Below the pieces are notes generated by a model. It worked only from the letters and a program-made list of their open reading frames with translations. It did not search any database and had not been told where the DNA came from. From Caldilineaceae bacterium bin34 (lineage in GTDB: Bacteria; Chloroflexota; Anaerolineae; Caldilineales; Caldilineaceae): a stretch of DNA of 64,000 nucleotides. Made by a program: the position numbers and the translations under genes. Positions 28,014-39,400 of this stretch are shown here, one piece after another. The stretch's first letter is position 1; each line of letters opens with the position of its first letter. Where the stretch lies: positions 1 to 64,000 of the forward strand of contig MPMO01000006.1 of assembly GCA_002238555.1 (NCBI GenBank), given 5' to 3'.

Positions 28014-28109
28014 GGGTTGGCATGTGTCCCGGTGGGCACCCTGGTCTTCAACACCAGTGGCAGGCAGTGCTGAGCTGGCTGCGGTGGGTTCGACTCCCAT
28101 GCCAACTCG
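28014..28109 (+). tRNA. selC: Selenocysteine tRNA, anticodon UCA
   Basis: The 96-base segment folds as bacterial tRNA-Sec. Acceptor stem 8 bp: GGGTTGGC (28014-28021) with GCCAACTC (28101-28108), one G-U pair; discriminator G at 28109; CCA is not encoded. D arm: 6 bp, GTGTCC (28024-28029) with GGGCAC (28034-28039), 4-base loop CGGT. Anticodon stem CTGGT/ACCAG with loop CTTCAAC; the anticodon TCA is 28048-28050. The long variable arm pairs GCAG and CAG with CTG and CTGC around a G-G mismatch (28060-28082). T arm 5 bp with loop TTCGACT. The 8+5 stack, the 6-bp D stem and G73 are all tRNA-Sec hallmarks. The host therefore decodes UGA as selenocysteine; selA, selB and selD are not in this window. 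Confidence 0.95.
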
Positions 28110-30072: not shown

Positions 30073-31653
30073 ATGCCCAGACTCAACGGCGGACAAGCCC
30101 TCATTCAGTCCCTGGCGGCACTGGGTGCCGACATGGTCTTCGGCGTGCCCGGCTGGGGCCAATACGAAGCGGTGGATGCCCTCTGGAAGCACCCCGCGAT
30201 CCGGTATGTATCGGTGCGGAACGAATTGGACACCACATTCCTGGCGGATGCCTATGCCCAGGTGTCGAACAAACCGGCGGTGGCCCTGGTGGTCCCGGGA
30301 CCCGGCCTGCTCTATGCCGGCGCCGGCCTGGCGTCGGCCTTTGCCAATTCGTCGCCGGTGCTGGTGGTGACCAGCGCCAACACCCATCCCGTGCTGAACC
30401 GCCGGCAACTGGAACTGACCACGCTGCGCACCATGACCAAGTGGACGGGCATGGCCCAGGCCGTGGCCGACATCCCCGAACTGGTCGCGGAAGCCTGGTG
30501 CCAGTTGACGACCGGCCGGCCGCGGCCGGTCGGACTGGTGGTGCCCCACGAAGTGCTGGCCGGCCGCGGCGAAGTGGCGTTGCCGGCCGCCCCGCCGGAG
30601 TCGGCGCGTCCCGTTGCGCGCGGGGTGGCCACGGCCGCCGCACGCATCGCGGAGGCCCGTCGCCCCCTGCTGTGGGCCGGTTCGGGTGTTCGCCGGTCGG
30701 GGGCCGAGGAGATCCTGCGGACATTCGCCGAACGGTTGTGCATTCCGGTTACGACCACCCGCCGCGGCAAGGGACTGGTGGACGAGGCAGGGCCGTTGGG
30801 TCTCGGATACCCGGAGTTGCGCTACCGTCCCTTGAAGGAGTGGATCGACCAGCGGGATTTGGTGATTGCGGTCGGCGTTGGCCAGGACCTAAGCCATCTT
30901 TCGGTGCCTGTTGTGCAGCTCGATATCGACGATCTCAATCCGGACCGGTCTGCCGCCGATACCCTGTTCCTGCATGGGGACGCCAAGGCCACGCTGGAGG
31001 CCCTGGATACGCATACGCCCGGACTTGCGGACCGCTCCGACGACGCGGCCGCACGCGATCTCGAGGCGATACGCCAACTGAAGGCGGAGCGGTTCAAGCC
31101 GGACCGGCAGCTGGAACCCCAGCACTCGCTGATGCAGGCCATCCGGCGCGGAGCGCCGAACGAAGCCGTCATTATCCAGGGCATGACCCAGATGGGCTAT
31201 TACAGCCGCAACTACCTGTCGGTGCCGGTTGAAGGGCAGTACTTGACCTCCTCGTCCCAAATCACGCTGGGAGCCGCCTATCTCTACTCCCTGGGCGCCA
31301 AGCTGGCCGCACCGGAACGCCCGGTGGTGGCTGTGTCCGGTGACGGAGGTTTTTTGTACGGCGCCCATGCCATGGCCACGGCCGTGCAGGAAGGCATTCA
31401 CTCGGTGGTGCTGGTGTTCAACGACAACGCCTACGGCAACGTCCTGCGCGCCCAGCGGGAGGAGTTCGACGAGCGGGTGATCGGAACCCGCCTGCACAAT
31501 CCGGACTTCCCGGCCATGGCCCGCAGCTTCGGTGCCCGGGGCCTGCGCGCCGAATCCCCGGAACAGCTGGAGCAGCTGCTGCGGGAGGCGGTTCAAACGG
31601 AAGCCCACACGGTGATCGAGATTCCGGTCGGTGAAATGGAAAGGGCCTACTGA
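30073..31653 (+). CDS. Thiamine-diphosphate-dependent enzyme, acetolactate synthase-like
   Basis: 526 residues with the three domains of the ThDP decarboxylase/acetolactate-synthase family. The N-terminal Pyr domain carries the activating Glu51 in the RNEL segment, the middle domain is Rossmann-like, and the C-terminal PP domain has the ThDP motif that begins with GDGG (about 422) and ends at NDNAYGN about 27 residues later. It could cleave or join a 2-keto acid; the exact reaction is not readable. No small regulatory subunit or ilv gene is near, so branched-chain amino-acid synthesis is unlikely. It is probably part of a catabolic set with its two neighbours. Confidence 0.85.
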   Translation: MPRLNGGQALIQSLAALGADMVFGVPGWGQYEAVDALWKHPAIRYVSVRNELDTTFLADAYAQVSNKPAVALVVPGPGLLYAGAGLASAFANSSPVLVVTSANTHPVLNRRQLELTTLRTMTKWTGMAQAVADIPELVAEAWCQLTTGRPRPVGLVVPHEVLAGRGEVALPAAPPESARPVARGVATAAARIAEARRPLLWAGSGVRRSGAEEILRTFAERLCIPVTTTRRGKGLVDEAGPLGLGYPELRYRPLKEWIDQRDLVIAVGVGQDLSHLSVPVVQLDIDDLNPDRSAADTLFLHGDAKATLEALDTHTPGLADRSDDAAARDLEAIRQLKAERFKPDRQLEPQHSLMQAIRRGAPNEAVIIQGMTQMGYYSRNYLSVPVEGQYLTSSSQITLGAAYLYSLGAKLAAPERPVVAVSGDGGFLYGAHAMATAVQEGIHSVVLVFNDNAYGNVLRAQREEFDERVIGTRLHNPDFPAMARSFGARGLRAESPEQLEQLLREAVQTEAHTVIEIPVGEMERAY

Positions 31654-31693
31654 CCGATTTCTGTTGCTCCCCATTGTTTTCGGAGAGAATTTC

Positions 31694-33487
31694 ATGCCCG
31701 TTGTCCTTGCGAGTCCCGTTTCACCTCCGACTTGGGCGCTGCTCCAGCGACAACTGTTGCGGGAGGCCAGTGAAGCATGCCGCGCGTTCCATGCCAAGTA
31801 CTTCGACCAACGGGGATTCCTCGAGTGCGTGCCCCGTTGGGGCGGGGACGACGGACCGGACGATGCCGCCGAGAATCTGCTCAATTGGACGATGCTGCAT
31901 GCCCTGGGCGCCCCGGACTGGCTCCTGGGACTGTACCGCCACGGCTGGGAAGGGCATTTGCGGCAGTACACGGAAGCGAGGACTTCCGAAGTTCCGTTTG
32001 CGCGCGACGGGATGTACTACAAGGAATTCCCGGTCATGTTCGACTGGTTCCACAACGGGGAGGGATACAGCGCGTTCTTTCTGGAAGGCCTCTGTGATCC
32101 CGACAATCGGGAGTTCAGGCGGCGGACCCGCCGTTTCGCCGGCTTCTACCTGGGGGACGAACCGGGCGCGGACAACTTCGATCCCGAACTGTGCCTGGTG
32201 CGCAGCATGTTCAACGGCAGCCGGGGGCCCCTGCTGCGCAAGGCCACGGCGTTGGACTGGGCCGGCGATCCCACTGAGATAGAGGGCAGGTTTCGGCCCG
32301 GCCACGGCGAAGCCAGCTATGCTCAGATGCTGGAGCACTTTGCCGAGTACAACGACGTTGACGGCGACAGTCCCCTCAATTTTGGGATTACGACGCCGAT
32401 GCTGAACGCGTTCATGCTGGATGGGGAACCGCGCTACCGCGATTGGATCACCGCCTACATGGACAAGTGGGTCGAGCGCACGGACGCCAACGGCGGCATC
32501 ATTCCCACGATTGTGGGCCCCGACGGCGTGGTGGGCTCCCCCTGTGGCGACCGCTGGTACGGGGGCGTCTACGGCTGGGGCTTTACGGTATCGGTCCCGG
32601 GAAGCGGCAGCAAGGCCCACCGACCGTTTTTCAGTCACCGTGCCCCGTACGGTTTCGGCAACGCCCTGTTGCTGACCGGCGACCGCCGCTACGTGGAAAC
32701 CTGGCGCGGCGTCATCCAGGCGGTCAACGCCAACAGTCGACAGGGTTCGGACGGAGTCGAGTATCCGCGGATGTTCGGCGACGACGGGTGGTACGAGTAC
32801 CGGGCCGACCCGTTTCAGGACGGGGCGGAGGAGATTCTTTACTGGTCCCACGACGCAACCGGATTGCCCGCGGCGACACGGTCCGAGTGGCATCGATTCC
32901 TGGCCGGGGACAATCCGGGCTGGCCCGAGGAGGCATTGCGGCGGGATCTGGATGAGGTTCGCAGCCGCATGGAGGGTGTGCGGGCGGATCCTTCAACCCC
33001 GGACACGCGTCTGTCCGACGACATGAACCATCTCAATCCGGCCTGCACCGAGGCTTTGACCCGCACCATGCTGGGCGGTCTGCCCACCGGACGCGTCGGG
33101 TATCCGCTGCACTGCCAGTTGCGCTACTTCGATCCGGAGGCGCGTCGGGCCGGCCTGCCGCCCGATGTGGGTTCGCTGGTGCACGCGATGGATGCCGAAG
33201 GGATCGAAGTGGAACTTGTGAACCTGAATGTTCGGGAATCCCGTACTGTCCAGGTGCAGCTGGGTGCCTATGGTGAACATGCCGTTGCGGACCTGCGGCT
33301 TGTGGACGGCAGGCAGGTTGATCGGGACACGCTGGGCGAACGGGACTCGGTGTTCGAAGTGGTGCTGGAACCGGGATGCGGAGGCCGACTGGCCCTGGGC
33401 TTGTCGCGGTACTGCCGGTGGCCCACATTGGCGTTTCCCTGGCGGCGGCACGGGTCGCGCGAGCGAACCGGGTCCCTTGCATGCTGA
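31694..33487 (+). CDS. 597-residue protein of unknown family, probably alpha/alpha-toroid
   Basis: I do not recognise a named family. The protein is soluble, with no signal peptide. The first 450 residues are rich in aromatic residues and acidic turns arranged in helical hairpins (for example the segments around PVMFDWFHNGEGYSAFFLE and DWITAYMDKWVERTD), like the (alpha/alpha)6 toroids of glycan-degrading enzymes. The last 100 residues look beta-rich (VELVNLNVRESRTVQVQLG), as in such proteins' C-terminal sandwich domains. ATG 31694 follows GGAGAG. The position after a sialidase-like protein and a ThDP enzyme supports a sugar-related role, but this is inference. Confidence 0.6.
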   Translation: MPVVLASPVSPPTWALLQRQLLREASEACRAFHAKYFDQRGFLECVPRWGGDDGPDDAAENLLNWTMLHALGAPDWLLGLYRHGWEGHLRQYTEARTSEVPFARDGMYYKEFPVMFDWFHNGEGYSAFFLEGLCDPDNREFRRRTRRFAGFYLGDEPGADNFDPELCLVRSMFNGSRGPLLRKATALDWAGDPTEIEGRFRPGHGEASYAQMLEHFAEYNDVDGDSPLNFGITTPMLNAFMLDGEPRYRDWITAYMDKWVERTDANGGIIPTIVGPDGVVGSPCGDRWYGGVYGWGFTVSVPGSGSKAHRPFFSHRAPYGFGNALLLTGDRRYVETWRGVIQAVNANSRQGSDGVEYPRMFGDDGWYEYRADPFQDGAEEILYWSHDATGLPAATRSEWHRFLAGDNPGWPEEALRRDLDEVRSRMEGVRADPSTPDTRLSDDMNHLNPACTEALTRTMLGGLPTGRVGYPLHCQLRYFDPEARRAGLPPDVGSLVHAMDAEGIEVELVNLNVRESRTVQVQLGAYGEHAVADLRLVDGRQVDRDTLGERDSVFEVVLEPGCGGRLALGLSRYCRWPTLAFPWRRHGSRERTGSLAC

Positions 33488-33561: not shown

Positions 33562-35520
33562 GTGTCAATCACATCCTCACAACCATCCGACCTGAACACC
33601 GCGGGCCGCGGATGGGATTCCGACTTCAGGGCCTTTGAACAGGCTTCGCCGGCCAGGGTGGTGCACCGCATCCAGGATTTCGTCGGCATCCACTCCCCAT
33701 CGGAATACCGGTCGTGGACTTCAACCGTGCCGCACCTGCAGCGCGAAGTTGGCGAGGTGGTGCGCTACGACGGTGCGGCCGGTGGTTACACGGCCGTGCT
33801 CGAATACCAGTTGCCGCTGGAGGCGCGCCGCATCGACGCAGTCTTCCTGTTGCACGACGGAGTGGCGGTCATTGAGCTCAAGGGCAAGGCGGCGGCCACG
33901 GCGGCGGATATCGACCAGGCCCATGCCTATGCTCGGGACCTGGCCAACTATCACAGGGACTGCCATCAACGCCGGGTTGTTCCCATTCTGGTGCCGACGG
34001 ACATGCAAGGCCCTGTCCAACGCACCGGGCATGTCCACGTCTGCCCACCGCACAGGCTGGACGAATTGCTGGCCGCGGTGGATTCGAAATCCCGGCCGGA
34101 CCGGATGGATCCCGAGCGCTTTCTGTCCGGGGACGCCTATCGCCCCCTACCGAGCCTGATTCAGGCGGCCCGGACTCTGTTTCACAGTCGCCGGATACCG
34201 AGGTTGTGGCGTTCCCTGGCCGATACGGACGCAGCCGTTGACGGCATCCACGACATCGTCCGGCAAGCGGCAGCCACGCGGACTCGCAGGTTGGTTCTGG
34301 TCACGGGTGTGCCCGGAGCCGGCAAGACGCTGGTGGGCCTGCGCATGGCCCATTCCGAGGAACCGGATCGGCTGGCCAGTCGGGATGCCCCGTCCTCGGC
34401 CATTTTTCTTTCCGGCAACGGTCCGCTGGTGCAGGTCTTGCAGTACCAACTGAAGAGCGCAGGTGGTGGTGGACGCGCGTTTGTCCGCAGTGTCAAGGAC
34501 TACGTCAGGACCTATGGCCGCGCCGGCGGCAGCGTACCTGATCACCATGTGATCGTGTTTGACGAAGCGCAGCGTGCGTTTGACGCCCCCAAGGTGGCTG
34601 ACACCCACAAACTACCTCTGGCGCAGGCGAAGTCCGAACCCCAGGCATTCGTCGCCATCGCGGAGCGGCTGCCCGATTGGTGTGTGGTGATTGGCCTGAT
34701 TGGGTCGGGCCAGGAAATCCATGTCGGCGAGGAGGCGGGCATCGGACAGTGGGCGGATGCCGTCCGCGGGACCGGCGACGCGGGCTTATGGACGGTGCAC
34801 GGACCGCCCGGAATCCAGTCCGAGTTCTCCGACCTGCAGTTCCGGGCCGATCAGAACCTTTCCCTGGACACTGCGCTGCGGGCGCACCTGGCCGCTGATC
34901 TTGACCTCTTCGTGGACGGTTTGGTCAACGCCGAAGAGCCTAAGGACGCGGCGCGGTTGTCACAGTTGGCCGGGAGACTGGAACAGAACGGGCATCATCT
35001 GCGCCTATGCCGCGATCTGCGTGTCGGCAAGGCCTATCTGCGGGACCGATATGCCGACCAACCGGACAAGCAGTTTGGCCTGATGACTTCCAGCCGGGAC
35101 AAGGCCCTGAGCCGATCGGTGCCGGAGCATCAACGATTTGACGCCGACTTTCGGTGGCGGTCGCAGGCTCGGCTGTTGGCTCCGTGGTATGTCGAAGCCG
35201 AGGAACATCCCGGCTCCTGCCGGCATCTGCACCGCAGTATTACGGAATTCGAGGCTCAAGGCCTGGAACTGGACGGTGTGCTGCTGGGTTGGGGAACGGA
35301 CTTTGTCAGGTCGGATGGAGCCTGGGACATGTCGCGCATGACGCGCTACCAGAAGGGCAGAGGGCAGGCCCGGGTTCGCCATCCCGGCCAACTCCGGGCC
35401 AATGCCTATCGGGTGTTGCTGACGCGCGCCCGCGACGTGACGGTGGTGTACGTGCCCGACCTGCCGGAGTCGGAGGCTACGGCGGCATTTCTTGAGCGAG
35501 TCGGTTTTCAGTCCCTGTAA
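33562..35520 (+). CDS. PD-(D/E)XK nuclease-like domain fused to SF1 helicase (DUF2075-like)
   Basis: 652 residues from GTG 33562. Near residues 90-110, RIDAVFLL followed by VAVIELKGK fits the Asp and Glu-x-Lys core of a PD-(D/E)XK nuclease. From about residue 245 a helicase-like ATPase follows: Walker A GVPGAGKTLVGL (about 249-260), Walker B VIVFDEAQRAFD (about 331), a late EAQGLELDGVLLGWGTD motif (about 563) and motif VI RVLLTRARDVTVVYV (about 616), the pattern of the DUF2075/Schlafen-helicase group. Nuclease-helicase fusions often act in phage defence or DNA repair. It has no methylase or other known defence gene beside it. It precedes the GCS2 operon by 166 bases. Confidence 0.7.
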   Translation: MSITSSQPSDLNTAGRGWDSDFRAFEQASPARVVHRIQDFVGIHSPSEYRSWTSTVPHLQREVGEVVRYDGAAGGYTAVLEYQLPLEARRIDAVFLLHDGVAVIELKGKAAATAADIDQAHAYARDLANYHRDCHQRRVVPILVPTDMQGPVQRTGHVHVCPPHRLDELLAAVDSKSRPDRMDPERFLSGDAYRPLPSLIQAARTLFHSRRIPRLWRSLADTDAAVDGIHDIVRQAAATRTRRLVLVTGVPGAGKTLVGLRMAHSEEPDRLASRDAPSSAIFLSGNGPLVQVLQYQLKSAGGGGRAFVRSVKDYVRTYGRAGGSVPDHHVIVFDEAQRAFDAPKVADTHKLPLAQAKSEPQAFVAIAERLPDWCVVIGLIGSGQEIHVGEEAGIGQWADAVRGTGDAGLWTVHGPPGIQSEFSDLQFRADQNLSLDTALRAHLAADLDLFVDGLVNAEEPKDAARLSQLAGRLEQNGHHLRLCRDLRVGKAYLRDRYADQPDKQFGLMTSSRDKALSRSVPEHQRFDADFRWRSQARLLAPWYVEAEEHPGSCRHLHRSITEFEAQGLELDGVLLGWGTDFVRSDGAWDMSRMTRYQKGRGQARVRHPGQLRANAYRVLLTRARDVTVVYVPDLPESEATAAFLERVGFQSL

Positions 35521-35686
35521 CGGTGGCGGTGGCCACACCAATCCCTGCGGCATACGGGCCCAAGGGACTACCAACCGATGGCGCGGGCGTACGGATGTCG
35601 GTACCCTTCGGAGCGGGCCGGGCCGCGGGGGCTGGTAAACTTCACGGGTTGCGATACCGCTGTGCGCAAAACCCGGAGGGCGGCCG

Positions 35687-36088
35687 TTGAGTACGATTTC
35701 GCTCGTCCAGCCGGACGAACCGTTGCGGATTCAGAAGATCCTGATTTTCCCCTACCCGGATTTGAAGCGGCTTTGGTTCCGCATGCAGTTGCAGGCACAG
35801 CCCGACCACAAGGCCAACATCGACATTGATGTCGCCGCGGTCGATGGACCGACCGGCAACAGTTTGGCGTTCGTGGCCTACGACGACACCTACCTGGATG
35901 CCACCATCCACCTGAGGGAGCCGCAGCCCGGCCGCCTTTATCAGTGCGTGGTCGACCTCTCCCTGGGGCTGCCGCCCGACATTGAGCATGTAGAGCAGGT
36001 CAGGTTCGAGTTTCCGCTGGAGTTTCGGGACGCCGAAGCCGGAGCCGACGGCTTCGGCTATGATTGCCCCGACTCGACCCCGGCCTAG
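35687..36088 (+). CDS. Small beta-rich protein of unknown function
   Basis: 133 residues, not recognised. It starts at TTG 35687, supported by GGAGGG six bases upstream. The sequence alternates hydrophobic and polar residues in short strands (RIQKILIFPY, LWFRMQLQAQ, IDIDVAAVD, CVVDLSLGL), suggesting a beta sandwich; it has no signal peptide, membrane segment or catalytic motif. It ends 22 bases before the degenerate GCS2 gene, so the three genes 35687-38344 are probably one operon. It may be a partner of the ligase pair. Confidence 0.65.
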   Translation: MSTISLVQPDEPLRIQKILIFPYPDLKRLWFRMQLQAQPDHKANIDIDVAAVDGPTGNSLAFVAYDDTYLDATIHLREPQPGRLYQCVVDLSLGLPPDIEHVEQVRFEFPLEFRDAEAGADGFGYDCPDSTPA

Positions 36089-36110
36089 TTGCAATTTTGC
36101 AGGACACGAG

Positions 36111-37232
36111 ATGCCGCCAGTCAAACCTTCCTTGCAGCTCGCCGTTGCCGAAGAGTACCCGATTGTCGACGCCGAATCGCGGCAGCTGCAGGGGTACATC
36201 AACCAGTTTCCGGACCGGGATCCGATCGTGATCTACGAGGAGGAGACGGAGCGGGTCCTGAAGCCGGAACTGGCGGGTATTGCGACCCTGTTGGACATGG
36301 ACTTCCACCCCGACGTGGAAAGCCTGGGGCAGGCGCTGGCCCGGCAACGGGCGGAAGTGGCCGACCTCCTCGACAAGGTCGGCTGCCGGATGGCCATCGC
36401 CGGCACCCACCCGGACAGCATGCCCCAAACCCGTACCCGGGTCTTCACCTGGTACAGCGAACTGGTCGGGGATGTCGCCGTCGTGGCCCGTCGCCTGCAG
36501 ATATACGCCACCACCTTCCACATCACGATTGGGAATCCGGATCTGACCATCGGCGTGATGAACGGGATGCGCTACTTGATGCCGCATGTGCTCTGCCTGA
36601 GCACGAGTTCCCCGCTTTGGTCCGGCGAACTGACCGGTCTCAAGGGGTATCGACAGGTCCTCCGGGACTCGCTGCAGCGCACCAATTTCCCGCCCACGTT
36701 CGAGAGCCGGAATGCCTACCAGGAATTCCTGGATACGCTCATCCAGTCCAACAGCATCGGCTCGTCGGAGGCCATCCGCTGGGACGTGCGGGTGAACCGG
36801 GACTGCAGCTGCCTCGTCGTCAGCGTGTGCGATGCCGTAACCAAGCTGGATGACCTGTTGACCATCGGTGCCCTGCTCCAGGGCATTGCCGCGTTCATGG
36901 CATCACTGATTATGAACAACCAGCAGTTCCGAACCTACGACCGCATCCTGCTGATGGAGAACAAGTGGCGGGCCATGCGCTACGGCACCGAGGGCCGGCT
37001 CATCGATTTCGGCAAGGAGGCCGAAGTCCCGTTGAACCGGCTGATGTGGGAGCTTGGGGAGCTGGTCCTGCCGTTCGCCGAAACCCTCAACGGTACAAGG
37101 TACGTTGAGAAGGTGCACGCCTTGGTTGAGGGAGGCTCGTCCGCGGACCGGCAGATTGCGGTGTGGCAGTCCAGCGGGGAATCGATGAAGGCCGTAGTCG
37201 ATCACATCGTCTCTGAATCCACGGATTTGTAG
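36111..37232 (+). CDS. Degenerate GCS2-family carboxylate-amine ligase paralogue
   Basis: 373 residues from ATG 36111 (AGGACACGAG upstream). It aligns along its length with the following gene, yet key family motifs are altered: the first Glu of the VEEEY motif is Ala (VAEEY), the ELHQ segment reads VLKP, GMHVHVG reads ATTFHITIG, and the catalytic RPHHTYPTLEYR segment (226-240 here) is RVNRDCSCLVV. The C-terminal ENKWRAMR is kept. The frame is intact and the length normal, so it looks like a maintained pseudoenzyme or an enzyme of changed chemistry, not a decaying gene. Two bases separate it from the intact paralogue. Confidence 0.8.
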   Translation: MPPVKPSLQLAVAEEYPIVDAESRQLQGYINQFPDRDPIVIYEEETERVLKPELAGIATLLDMDFHPDVESLGQALARQRAEVADLLDKVGCRMAIAGTHPDSMPQTRTRVFTWYSELVGDVAVVARRLQIYATTFHITIGNPDLTIGVMNGMRYLMPHVLCLSTSSPLWSGELTGLKGYRQVLRDSLQRTNFPPTFESRNAYQEFLDTLIQSNSIGSSEAIRWDVRVNRDCSCLVVSVCDAVTKLDDLLTIGALLQGIAAFMASLIMNNQQFRTYDRILLMENKWRAMRYGTEGRLIDFGKEAEVPLNRLMWELGELVLPFAETLNGTRYVEKVHALVEGGSSADRQIAVWQSSGESMKAVVDHIVSESTDL

Positions 37233-37234
37233 CC

Positions 37235-38344
37235 ATGAAGCGACCTGAGCTGACCCTGGGGGTGGAGGAGGAATATCAGGTTGTGGATCCCGAGTCCCGG
37301 GAACTGCAGTCGGTAATCTCCCACTTCACCAACCGGAACGAAGCCACCATTTACCACCGCACCATTAGTTCCGAACTGCACCAGTCCATGGTGGAGTTGG
37401 GCACCGGTGTCTGCCGCACCCCGGACGAGGTGATGCAGGAGCTCAAGTCCCAGCGGGAATACATCCGGGATCTGGCGGCCGAGCGGGGCCTGCGGATTGT
37501 GGCCGGCAGCACACACCCGGTCAGCCGCTGGGAAGAACAGGAGATTTCCCCCTACGACCGGTATCAGTCGCTGACCTCGGAATACCAGATCGTGGCCCGC
37601 CGCATGCTGGTCTGGGGCATGCACGTCCATGTCGGCATCAGCGACAAGGCCTTCCTGATGGACGTGATGAACATTACCCGCTACTACCTGCCGCATGTGC
37701 TGGCCCTGACGGCCAGCAGTCCGTTTTGGGGCGGCCTCGATACCGGCATGAAGAGCTACCGGGCCTTCGTGGCCGACGATTTTCCCCGGAGCGGCATGCC
37801 GGATGTGTTCGGCAGCTGGCAGGAATACGAAGCCCTGGCCAATACGCTGATCAACACCAACTGCCTCGACGACACGTCCAAGATCTGGTGGAATGTGCGG
37901 CCTCACCATACCTATCCGACGCTGGAGTACCGGATCATGGACATCTGCCCGCGCATGGAGGACGGCGTGGCCATCGCCGCCCTGCTGCAGGCACTGGCTC
38001 TGTGGGTCTGGAAGCTGCGTTCCAAAAACCTGACGTTCCGGCTGTTCAGCAAGGACCTGATCGACGAAAACAAGTGGCGCGCCGCCCGCGAGGGCCTGGA
38101 CTGCAAGCTGATCAATCTGGGTACCCGAGAGGAGATGCCGGCACGGACCGCCATTCGGGAACTGCTGAGCATGCTGTCCGAAGAGGTGACCGAACTTCAG
38201 ATCGGCAGCCAAGTCGAAACCCTCCACCGCATCCTCGAGACCGGCTCCAGCGCGGACAAGCAGCGGGCCATCTACAGGGACACGGGCGACCTGTCCCAGG
38301 TGGTGGATTTCCTGATGGAGGAAACCCTGGTCGGCCTGGACTGA
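37235..38344 (+). CDS. GCS2-family carboxylate-amine ligase (YbdK-like)
   Basis: 369 residues of the glutamate-cysteine ligase type 2 (COG2170) family, which joins a carboxylate to an amine with ATP. All signatures are intact: VEEEYQVVD (10-18), ELHQSMVE (47-54), GMHVHVG (128-134), RPHHTYPTLEYR (222-233) and ENKWRAAR (278-285). The substrate pair is unknown; YbdK has weak glutamate-cysteine ligase activity, and other relatives work on hercynine or peptides. It starts two bases after the stop of its degenerate paralogue, so a heteromer is plausible. It is convergent with the PurM-fold gene (9 bases apart). Confidence 0.9.
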   Translation: MKRPELTLGVEEEYQVVDPESRELQSVISHFTNRNEATIYHRTISSELHQSMVELGTGVCRTPDEVMQELKSQREYIRDLAAERGLRIVAGSTHPVSRWEEQEISPYDRYQSLTSEYQIVARRMLVWGMHVHVGISDKAFLMDVMNITRYYLPHVLALTASSPFWGGLDTGMKSYRAFVADDFPRSGMPDVFGSWQEYEALANTLINTNCLDDTSKIWWNVRPHHTYPTLEYRIMDICPRMEDGVAIAALLQALALWVWKLRSKNLTFRLFSKDLIDENKWRAAREGLDCKLINLGTREEMPARTAIRELLSMLSEEVTELQIGSQVETLHRILETGSSADKQRAIYRDTGDLSQVVDFLMEETLVGLD

Positions 38345-38353
38345 CTGCGGCCT

Positions 38354-39400
38354 TCAGGCGGCCGGCAGCCGGGTCAGTTCATCCGCCGCGAATTCGGGCA
38401 GCGGCACGTCCCTGCCCCGGTGTCGGGCCGCGAGTCCCGTCTCCGGGGGGGTGACGCGGCCGACTTGCACCGATGGCCAGCCCAGGTCGCGCCAAGCATC
38501 CCTCAACGCGTTGGCGTCGCCGGGTTGACAGGTGCACAACAGGCTTCCGGACGCGATGCAGCCAAGCGGATCAAGGCCACAGTCGCGGCAGATGCGCGCT
38601 GCGAAGGCCGGCACCGGAATGCGGTCCAGGTCCACCTCCAGCCCCGTGTTTGAGGCCGCGGCCAGTTCGCGCATGGCAGTGGCCACGCCGCCTTCCGTGG
38701 GGTCGTGCATGGCGGTGGCCAGTCCGCTGCGGGCAGCCGCCAGGGCCGGTTCCCGGATGCTGATGCCCGGCTCGTAAAGGCATTGCGAAGCGTCATTGAG
38801 TTCGGCCGGCGTCCAACCTTGGGCCAAGAGCGGCCTGCGCATGGCGCGTGCCAGGATGCTGACGGCCTCCACGGGGCACCAGCCTGCCAGGAGCAGAACG
38901 TCACCGGGTTGCGCGCCGGCAGTGGCAACCAGGTGACATCGGTCCACCGTGCCGAGCATGGTTCCGCTGACGACGGGGCGGCGGACTGCGTCAGTGACCT
39001 CGGTGTGGCCTCCGACAACCGAGATCCCGGCCGCGGTGCATGCCTCTCCCAACCGCTGGAACAGGTGTTCCGTTGCGGGTACGGTGGCCTGGCCGACCGG
39101 CAGGAGGACCACCGGCAGGAACCAGCGGGGTTCCGCCCCGCACACCGCCAGATCGTTCATGCCCACGGTGAGGGCGTACAACCCGATGTCATCGGTTGTA
39201 AACGTAATGGGGTCGCTGGTGGCAACCAGCAATTCGGAGCCGCGGTCCGGCCAGGCCAGGACCGCGGCATCCTCGCCCTGACCCGGTCCGACGAGCAGGG
39301 TTTGATCCCGGGTCGGCAGCAGGTTCAGGACGCGGGCGAGCCGCTCCGGTGCCAGTTTGCCGGACGGCAGGAGGGTGGGGCTTGCGGCATCCACGGACAA
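38354..39400 (-). CDS. AIR-synthase-fold (PurM/HypE/ThiL-like) protein
   Basis: 348 residues. The N-terminal half has the superfamily's ATP/phosphate-binding layout: GQGEDAAVL, DDIGLYALTVGMNDLAVCGAEP, and later GGHTEVTDAV; the C-terminal half has HDPTEGG and GCIASGS. It resembles HypE most, but it lacks the C-terminal PRIC-type Cys that HypE carbamoylates, and no hydrogenase genes are near. It is not SelD: the catalytic Cys/Sec-Lys is missing. It may be an ATP-dependent activating enzyme of unknown substrate. It is preceded on its strand by a 24-residue membrane peptide, 16 bases upstream. Confidence 0.75.
   Translation of the reverse strand: MSVDAASPTLLPSGKLAPERLARVLNLLPTRDQTLLVGPGQGEDAAVLAWPDRGSELLVATSDPITFTTDDIGLYALTVGMNDLAVCGAEPRWFLPVVLLPVGQATVPATEHLFQRLGEACTAAGISVVGGHTEVTDAVRRPVVSGTMLGTVDRCHLVATAGAQPGDVLLLAGWCPVEAVSILARAMRRPLLAQGWTPAELNDASQCLYEPGISIREPALAAARSGLATAMHDPTEGGVATAMRELAAASNTGLEVDLDRIPVPAFAARICRDCGLDPLGCIASGSLLCTCQPGDANALRDAWRDLGWPSVQVGRVTPPETGLAARHRGRDVPLPEFAADELTRLPAA

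Follow-up and report, generated by a model that had tools for sequence, protein, structure and literature searches.

Tandem GCS2-type ligase genes in the Caldilineaceae place a predicted enzyme beside a degenerate paralogue held under selection

A compact unit of three genes, S, A and B, lies on the plus strand of the window, our name for the whole 64,000-nucleotide stretch of Caldilineaceae DNA that was analysed (Table 1). The TTG start of S follows a Shine-Dalgarno-like GGAGG. We took A to start at ATG 36111; the open reading frame list begins it at the in-frame ATG 36060. A and B are 2 bases apart, just as the preliminary description had it, and both score above the Pfam GCS2 cut-off. Downstream, an AIR-synthase-family (AIRS) gene faces the unit. 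An AIRS gene is also close to the A-B pair in several other Caldilineaceae genomes; it serves here as a rate control, and we make no claim that it belongs to the S-A-B system. A scan for promoters and terminators gave no signal exceeding that of shuffled sequences.

Other features of the window deserve mention in their own right. The gene upstream of S encodes a Schlafen group 3 helicase domain protein (PF09848, 167.7 bits), for which a defence role is possible, and a 618-aa open reading frame before it has no match in Pfam or NCBIfam at E 0.1. The sole tRNA detected in the window is a tRNA-Sec, so the organism may make selenoproteins.

Table 1. Features of the S-A-B locus and its surroundings (window coordinates).
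Feature	Position	Strand	Description
tRNA-Sec gene	28014-28109		anticodon tca
618-aa ORF	31631-33487
Schlafen group 3 helicase domain gene	33562-35520		upstream of S
Shine-Dalgarno-like GGAGG	35675-35679		before the S start
S	35687-36088	+	133 aa; TTG start; predicted Ig/FNIII-like beta sandwich; heads the S-A-B unit
A	36111-37232	+	degenerate GCS2-fold paralogue, predicted pseudoenzyme; PF04107 87.2 bits
B	37235-38344	+	GCS2/YbdK-type carboxylate-amine ligase, predicted catalytic; PF04107 206.5 bits; all scored motifs present
AIRS gene	38354-39400	-	AIR-synthase family (HypE/ThiL/SelD-like); converges on B

B is predicted from its sequence to be a catalytic carboxylate-amine ligase of the GCS2/YbdK type. 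It scores far above the curated PF04107 (GCS2) cut-off of 21 bits and also exceeds the NCBIfam cut-offs for the YbdK subfamily (TIGR02050, 304.6 against 176.4) and for PRK13515 (NF010039, 461.6 against 371). Among known structures it matches PDB 1r8g (E 7e-47). The available text of PMC2588565 gives the superfamily motifs as GhExE in strand 1, acidic residues in strands 2 and 3, [HD]x[NH] in strand 4, an Arg in strand 5 and Ex[RK]x2D in strand 6. B carries GhExE, [HD]x[NH], Ex[RK]x2D, the acidic strand residue and the strand-5 Arg; every motif that we scored is present, in line with the earlier statement that the second gene retains all signatures.

A is a paralogue of B from which much of this machinery is missing. 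The two align at 34% identity across 367 columns, and A, though above the GCS2 cut-off, falls below both NCBIfam cut-offs (TIGR02050, 149.5 against 176.4; NF010039, 293.9 against 371). From B to A, GVEEE becomes AVAEE, SMVELGTG becomes GIATLLDMD, GMHVHVG becomes ATTFHIT and PTLEYR becomes SCLVVS; ENKWR is conserved in both. In B numbering, with residues assigned to motifs by reading of the alignment, the window A carries E11A, E54L, H130T, E231V and R233S and retains E13, H132, R222 (the strand-5 Arg), D236, N279 and R282. The superfamily set of GhExE, [HD]x[NH], Ex[RK]x2D and acidic strand residue is thus no longer intact in A, with the strand-5 Arg retained. By glutamine synthetase numbering, E11, H130 and E231 would be the residues, three in all, that bind the ATP-side (n2) metal. 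The same losses occur in all four genomes of the window genus, which makes assembly error unlikely.

The preliminary description of A proved right in outline and too strong in detail. It had A losing the VEEE Glu, the ELHQ segment, most of GMHVHVG and the catalytic segment, and E11, E54, H130, E231 and R233 are indeed gone. A nevertheless still has the second Glu of GhExE and the second His of HxH, along with the Asp of ExRxxD and the strand-5 Arg, and one Glu aligns with the Glu of ELHQ in a poorly aligned stretch. Its claim that A keeps ENKWR and the fold was sound. A structure model built on a 24-row alignment (mean pLDDT 83, pTM 0.87) has low confidence at residues 42-48 and 104-116. In the PDB it resembles 1tt4 and 1r8g most closely, and after them glutamate-cysteine ligases of plants and bacteria, PafA and Dop, so that the predicted fold is of YbdK type. 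Because the stretch around E47 and E54 is gappy and the model weak at 42-48 and 104-116, losses there are less sure than those of E11, H130 and E231.

Phylogeny separates the A copies from all other sequences. After exclusion of sequences shorter than 300 aa and of duplicate loci (L032-L045), we aligned 118 sequences; 79 entered the tree once near-copies and the truncated A of locus L077 had been dropped. In this tree 58 of 76 inner branches are starred. A branch with support 100/96 separates all 27 A rows (26 labelled A, plus the A copy of L055, which bears the label single only on account of its cut-off B) from B and single copies; the degenerate copy thus has a side of the tree to itself, in line with the separate clade that the preliminary description had named as a mark of support. 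Judged by eye, the A and B subtrees mirror each other. The delta-proteobacterial pair nests with two Caldilineaceae pairs in both, which suggests that the two genes were transferred together.

Catalytic residues are fixed in B and have been lost repeatedly in A. Thirteen motif sites are invariant in all 27 B rows and in all 25 single-copy relatives. We scored eight catalytic residues in A: of 27 rows, E11 is retained in 21, E13 in 27, E54 in 9, H130 in 16, H132 in 26, R222 in 20, E231 in 17 and R233 in 24, so that at least one is lost in 21 rows; D236, N279 and R282 are kept throughout. Parsimony places four changes at E11, five at E54, four at H130, one at H132, two at R222, three at E231 and one at R233, and these roughly 20 changes over seven sites point to repeated loss. 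In the remaining six A rows all eight residues are present; five of these six lack E47, a residue found in every B and single-copy row. Without thinning, the eight sites are intact in 10 of 41 A rows, in 40/40 B rows and in 37/37 single copies; two of the 41 A sequences, those of L077 and L082, have a truncated or shifted N-terminus. A was therefore probably an active ligase at first, and it cannot be called a pseudoenzyme in every lineage. In one group within the family (L070, L073, L079 and relatives) the A protein has an inserted stretch of about 23 residues, enriched in S, P, R and Q, that lies after the strand-5 Arg motif and before the ExR motif.

Within the window genus, A is under constraint equal to that on B. 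Six overlapping pairs among the four genomes give Nei-Gojobori dN/dS values of 0.053-0.139 (A), 0.067-0.142 (B) and 0.015-0.120 (S, where changes are few); the A frame is open in all four. None of the A values is near 1, the outcome that the preliminary description had named as speaking against it. Its proposal of selection on a pseudoenzyme stands on the low dN/dS and the open frame in this genus, but does not extend to the six A rows intact at all eight sites. A has diverged about twice as far as B, at silent and replacement sites alike.

Both genes evolved fast on the stem of the genus and are now tightly held. From the window genus to five other Caldilineaceae genomes, identity is 40% for A and 55% for B, against 70% and 79% among those five; the controls give 53% against 63% (AIRS) and 61% against 69% (ThyX). 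The corresponding ratio of differences is about 2.0 for A, about 2.1 for B and about 1.3 for each control, a comparison that rests on two control genes and five genomes from three genera. An aldo-keto-reductase query found many paralogues and so was left unused as a control. A fast stem followed by tight constraint points to a shifted function rather than to decay.

The A-B pair is widespread in the family and reaches a few other lineages. We searched 100 genomes including the window's own, 46 from Caldilineaceae and 54 others of the same class. A GCS2 match occurs in 55 of the 100, including 41 of the 46 Caldilineaceae, and is absent in the other five of that family. An adjacent pair is present in 39 of the 46, and in two more a lone GCS2 fragment sits at the edge of a contig. 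Of the 54 genomes from outside the family, two (G065 and G075) carry the pair. One of the 39, G026, has genes that look broken, the result of either decay or poor assembly: at C27:26305-30475, matches to a permuted ATP-grasp contain stops, those to A and B are fragmented with stops, and S is open. A pattern-based scan of a genome collection, which is no census, gave 72 loci. Tandem GCS2 genes, adjacent by map, occupy 40 of the 78 loci L046-L123 and share a strand in all 40. Beyond Chloroflexota, the pair occurs in one Desulfococcaceae genome and one Olavius-associated delta-proteobacterium; a search of 57 more genomes from around the Desulfococcaceae one gave no match. The worry that the degenerate copy might be confined to this genome is thereby removed. 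The expected conservation of gene order across lineages holds for A followed by B and does not tie S specifically to the pair.

Relatives carry the pair within a longer cluster of ligase genes. Loci L056 and L059 show the full order S, subtilase, esterase, RimK-like ATP-grasp, permuted ATP-grasp, A, B. The succession subtilase, esterase, RimK-like gene, permuted ATP-grasp, GCS2 gene recurs at twelve single-copy loci, at some of them with gaps, and four of five Acidobacteriota loci have esterase, RimK-like gene and GCS2 gene. In one large genus the common arrangement is S, permuted ATP-grasp, A and B without the middle genes. These ATP-grasp assignments are based on PF14403, which matches seven of eight permuted members with E no higher than 0.01 (the best at 5.2e-8; the first member falls short of the Pfam cut-off), and on TIGR00768 for the RimK-like gene (E 6.2e-8, under its cut-off).

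The window genus would represent a reduced form of this cluster. Neither ATP-grasp nor the esterase has a match in any of its four genomes, which are 94-98% complete, leaving S-A-B; the genus has presumably lost these genes rather than never having had them. A permuted ATP-grasp query yielded nothing from one of the two delta-proteobacterial pair genomes and a single partial match from the second. Upstream of their A-B pairs lies a 530-aa protein (L069:5701-7290 and L081:328-1920, 62% identical) that has no Pfam match and resembles the permuted ATP-grasp weakly (hhalign probability 33, BLAST E 0.21).

S is not tied to the A-B pair alone. Its model (pLDDT 85.3, pTM 0.78) has seven main strands and a short eighth, a predicted beta sandwich of Ig/FNIII-like type. 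S has no Pfam match, and a fold search returned generic Ig/FNIII-like matches, the best at E 0.0022 and none at E 0.001 or below. Matches to S occur in 41 of the 46 Caldilineaceae genomes and in 26 of the 54 others of the class, many of the 26 weak. Three of these Caldilineaceae genomes (G010, G017 and G019) have no GCS2 match, and in one of them S stands directly upstream of the RimK-like gene. Since S heads a longer cluster in relatives and occurs where GCS2 matches are missing, its candidacy as the exclusive partner of A-B is weakened; of the small beta-rich protein said to open the operon, the position and the beta-rich model hold, the specificity to the pair does not. The S profile, run with no positive control there, had no match in the two delta-proteobacterial pair genomes. 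We also considered S as a Pup-like tag. Pup, in the available text of PMC2588565, is a small bihelical tag ending in G[EQ] and encoded beside its ligase; we rejected the idea because S is an ordered beta sandwich in the model, with unconserved C-termini and no conserved C-terminal G[EQ].

We consider it rather probable, though far from assured, that A and B together form a heteromeric GCS2-type amide ligase in which A is the pseudoenzyme subunit. A keeps the fold without the metal and phosphate ligands and so should not do ligase chemistry, and it is retained by selection beside an active-looking copy. An invariant B next to constrained A copies that lose different residues in different lineages is what one expects of a non-catalytic subunit. 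B would bind Mg-ATP, phosphorylate a carboxylate (in this superfamily usually the glutamate gamma-carboxylate) and join it to an amine. A would replace a second B in the pairing and either stabilise B or shape or regulate its substrate site, with S as an Ig-like accessory that probably binds a partner or a substrate. The pair itself would descend from an old tandem duplication within a cluster of several peptide-type ligases. Contact between A and B, the reaction, the role of S and the direction of the cluster's history are points that we infer.

The main rival to a heteromer is a separate second function for A in the same pathway. The locus as a whole suggests that the A and B proteins work together, and adjacency and mirrored trees are equally expected for two separate steps in one pathway. 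A would then be a neofunctionalised protein, a binding protein or another enzyme on the GCS2 fold, and no subunit of B, which we hold to be unlikely but a serious contender. The fast stem and slow crown in the window genus suggest a new function, and the near-universal retention of E13, H132, D236, N279 and R282 would suit one. Precedent for this fold comes from PafA and Dop, homologues with different activities according to the available text of PMC7947786; yet Dop, by the same text, still starts its chemistry with ATP, and the window A has lost E11, H130 and E231. A single new activity would also predict one shared residue set, but A copies differ between lineages.

Other readings fare less well. 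It is improbable, in our judgement, that A is merely a former active ligase of a multi-step amide pathway whose chemistry became dispensable, now lingering structurally or departing. The six fully intact rows fit such a history, as does the most degenerate A sitting in a genus without ATP-grasp or esterase matches; against this, metal ligands are also lost in several lineages where a permuted ATP-grasp adjoins (for example L062, L065, L067, L068, L070 and L076), and in the window genus A and B are equally constrained. A bolder elaboration, a long shot in our estimation, makes S-A-B a reduced protein- or peptide-modifying ligase in which B makes the amide, A docks the substrate and S is adaptor or target, a small tagging system drawn from a larger amidoligase cluster. 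That A is a decaying pseudogene, as its lost catalytic residues might imply, we reject as next to inconceivable, given the low dN/dS, a reading frame that stays open in each of the four window-genus genomes, and the pair's presence in 39 of 46 Caldilineaceae genomes.

If A is indeed a pseudoenzyme subunit, these loci hold a glutamine-synthetase-fold ligase in which one paralogue repeatedly loses catalysis while the pair is kept. Copies ranging from intact to wholly degenerate would then form a natural series inside one bacterial family, making the transition from catalytic to structural or regulatory subunit directly testable. The pair would also be an entry point to an apparently uncharacterised Chloroflexota amidoligase cluster. 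The preliminary description knew of no comparable pair, and among the matches listed in the open literature (PubMed Central) we likewise found no GCS2 enzyme paired with a degenerate paralogue.

Known systems resemble this one in part. By score and motifs B is a full member of YbdK (1r8g, 1tt4), PRK13515 and Pfam GCS2, and A shares the predicted fold of YbdK-type ligases. The YbdK/PRK13515 family is known from catalytic members, whereas here a paralogue without catalytic residues is retained beside the active-looking copy. The order esterase, RimK-like gene, permuted ATP-grasp, GCS2 gene looks like the gene neighbourhoods with several amidoligases, of both the ATP-grasp and the glutamine-synthetase fold, that Iyer et al. 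2009 are said to have described. Human glutamate-cysteine ligase likewise combines a catalytic subunit (GCLC) with a modifier (GCLM) on a glutamate ligase; GCLM is not known to be a paralogue of GCLC, whereas A is a paralogue of B. Pupylation offers a further likeness, a small protein together with two homologues from this superfamily whose roles have diverged; for paired PafA paralogues, Iyer et al. 2008 suggested a heterodimer (PMC2588565, available text). PafA is a ligase and Dop a hydrolase, both catalytic (PMC7947786, available text), unlike the predicted-dead A, and S is in its model a beta sandwich rather than Pup-like.
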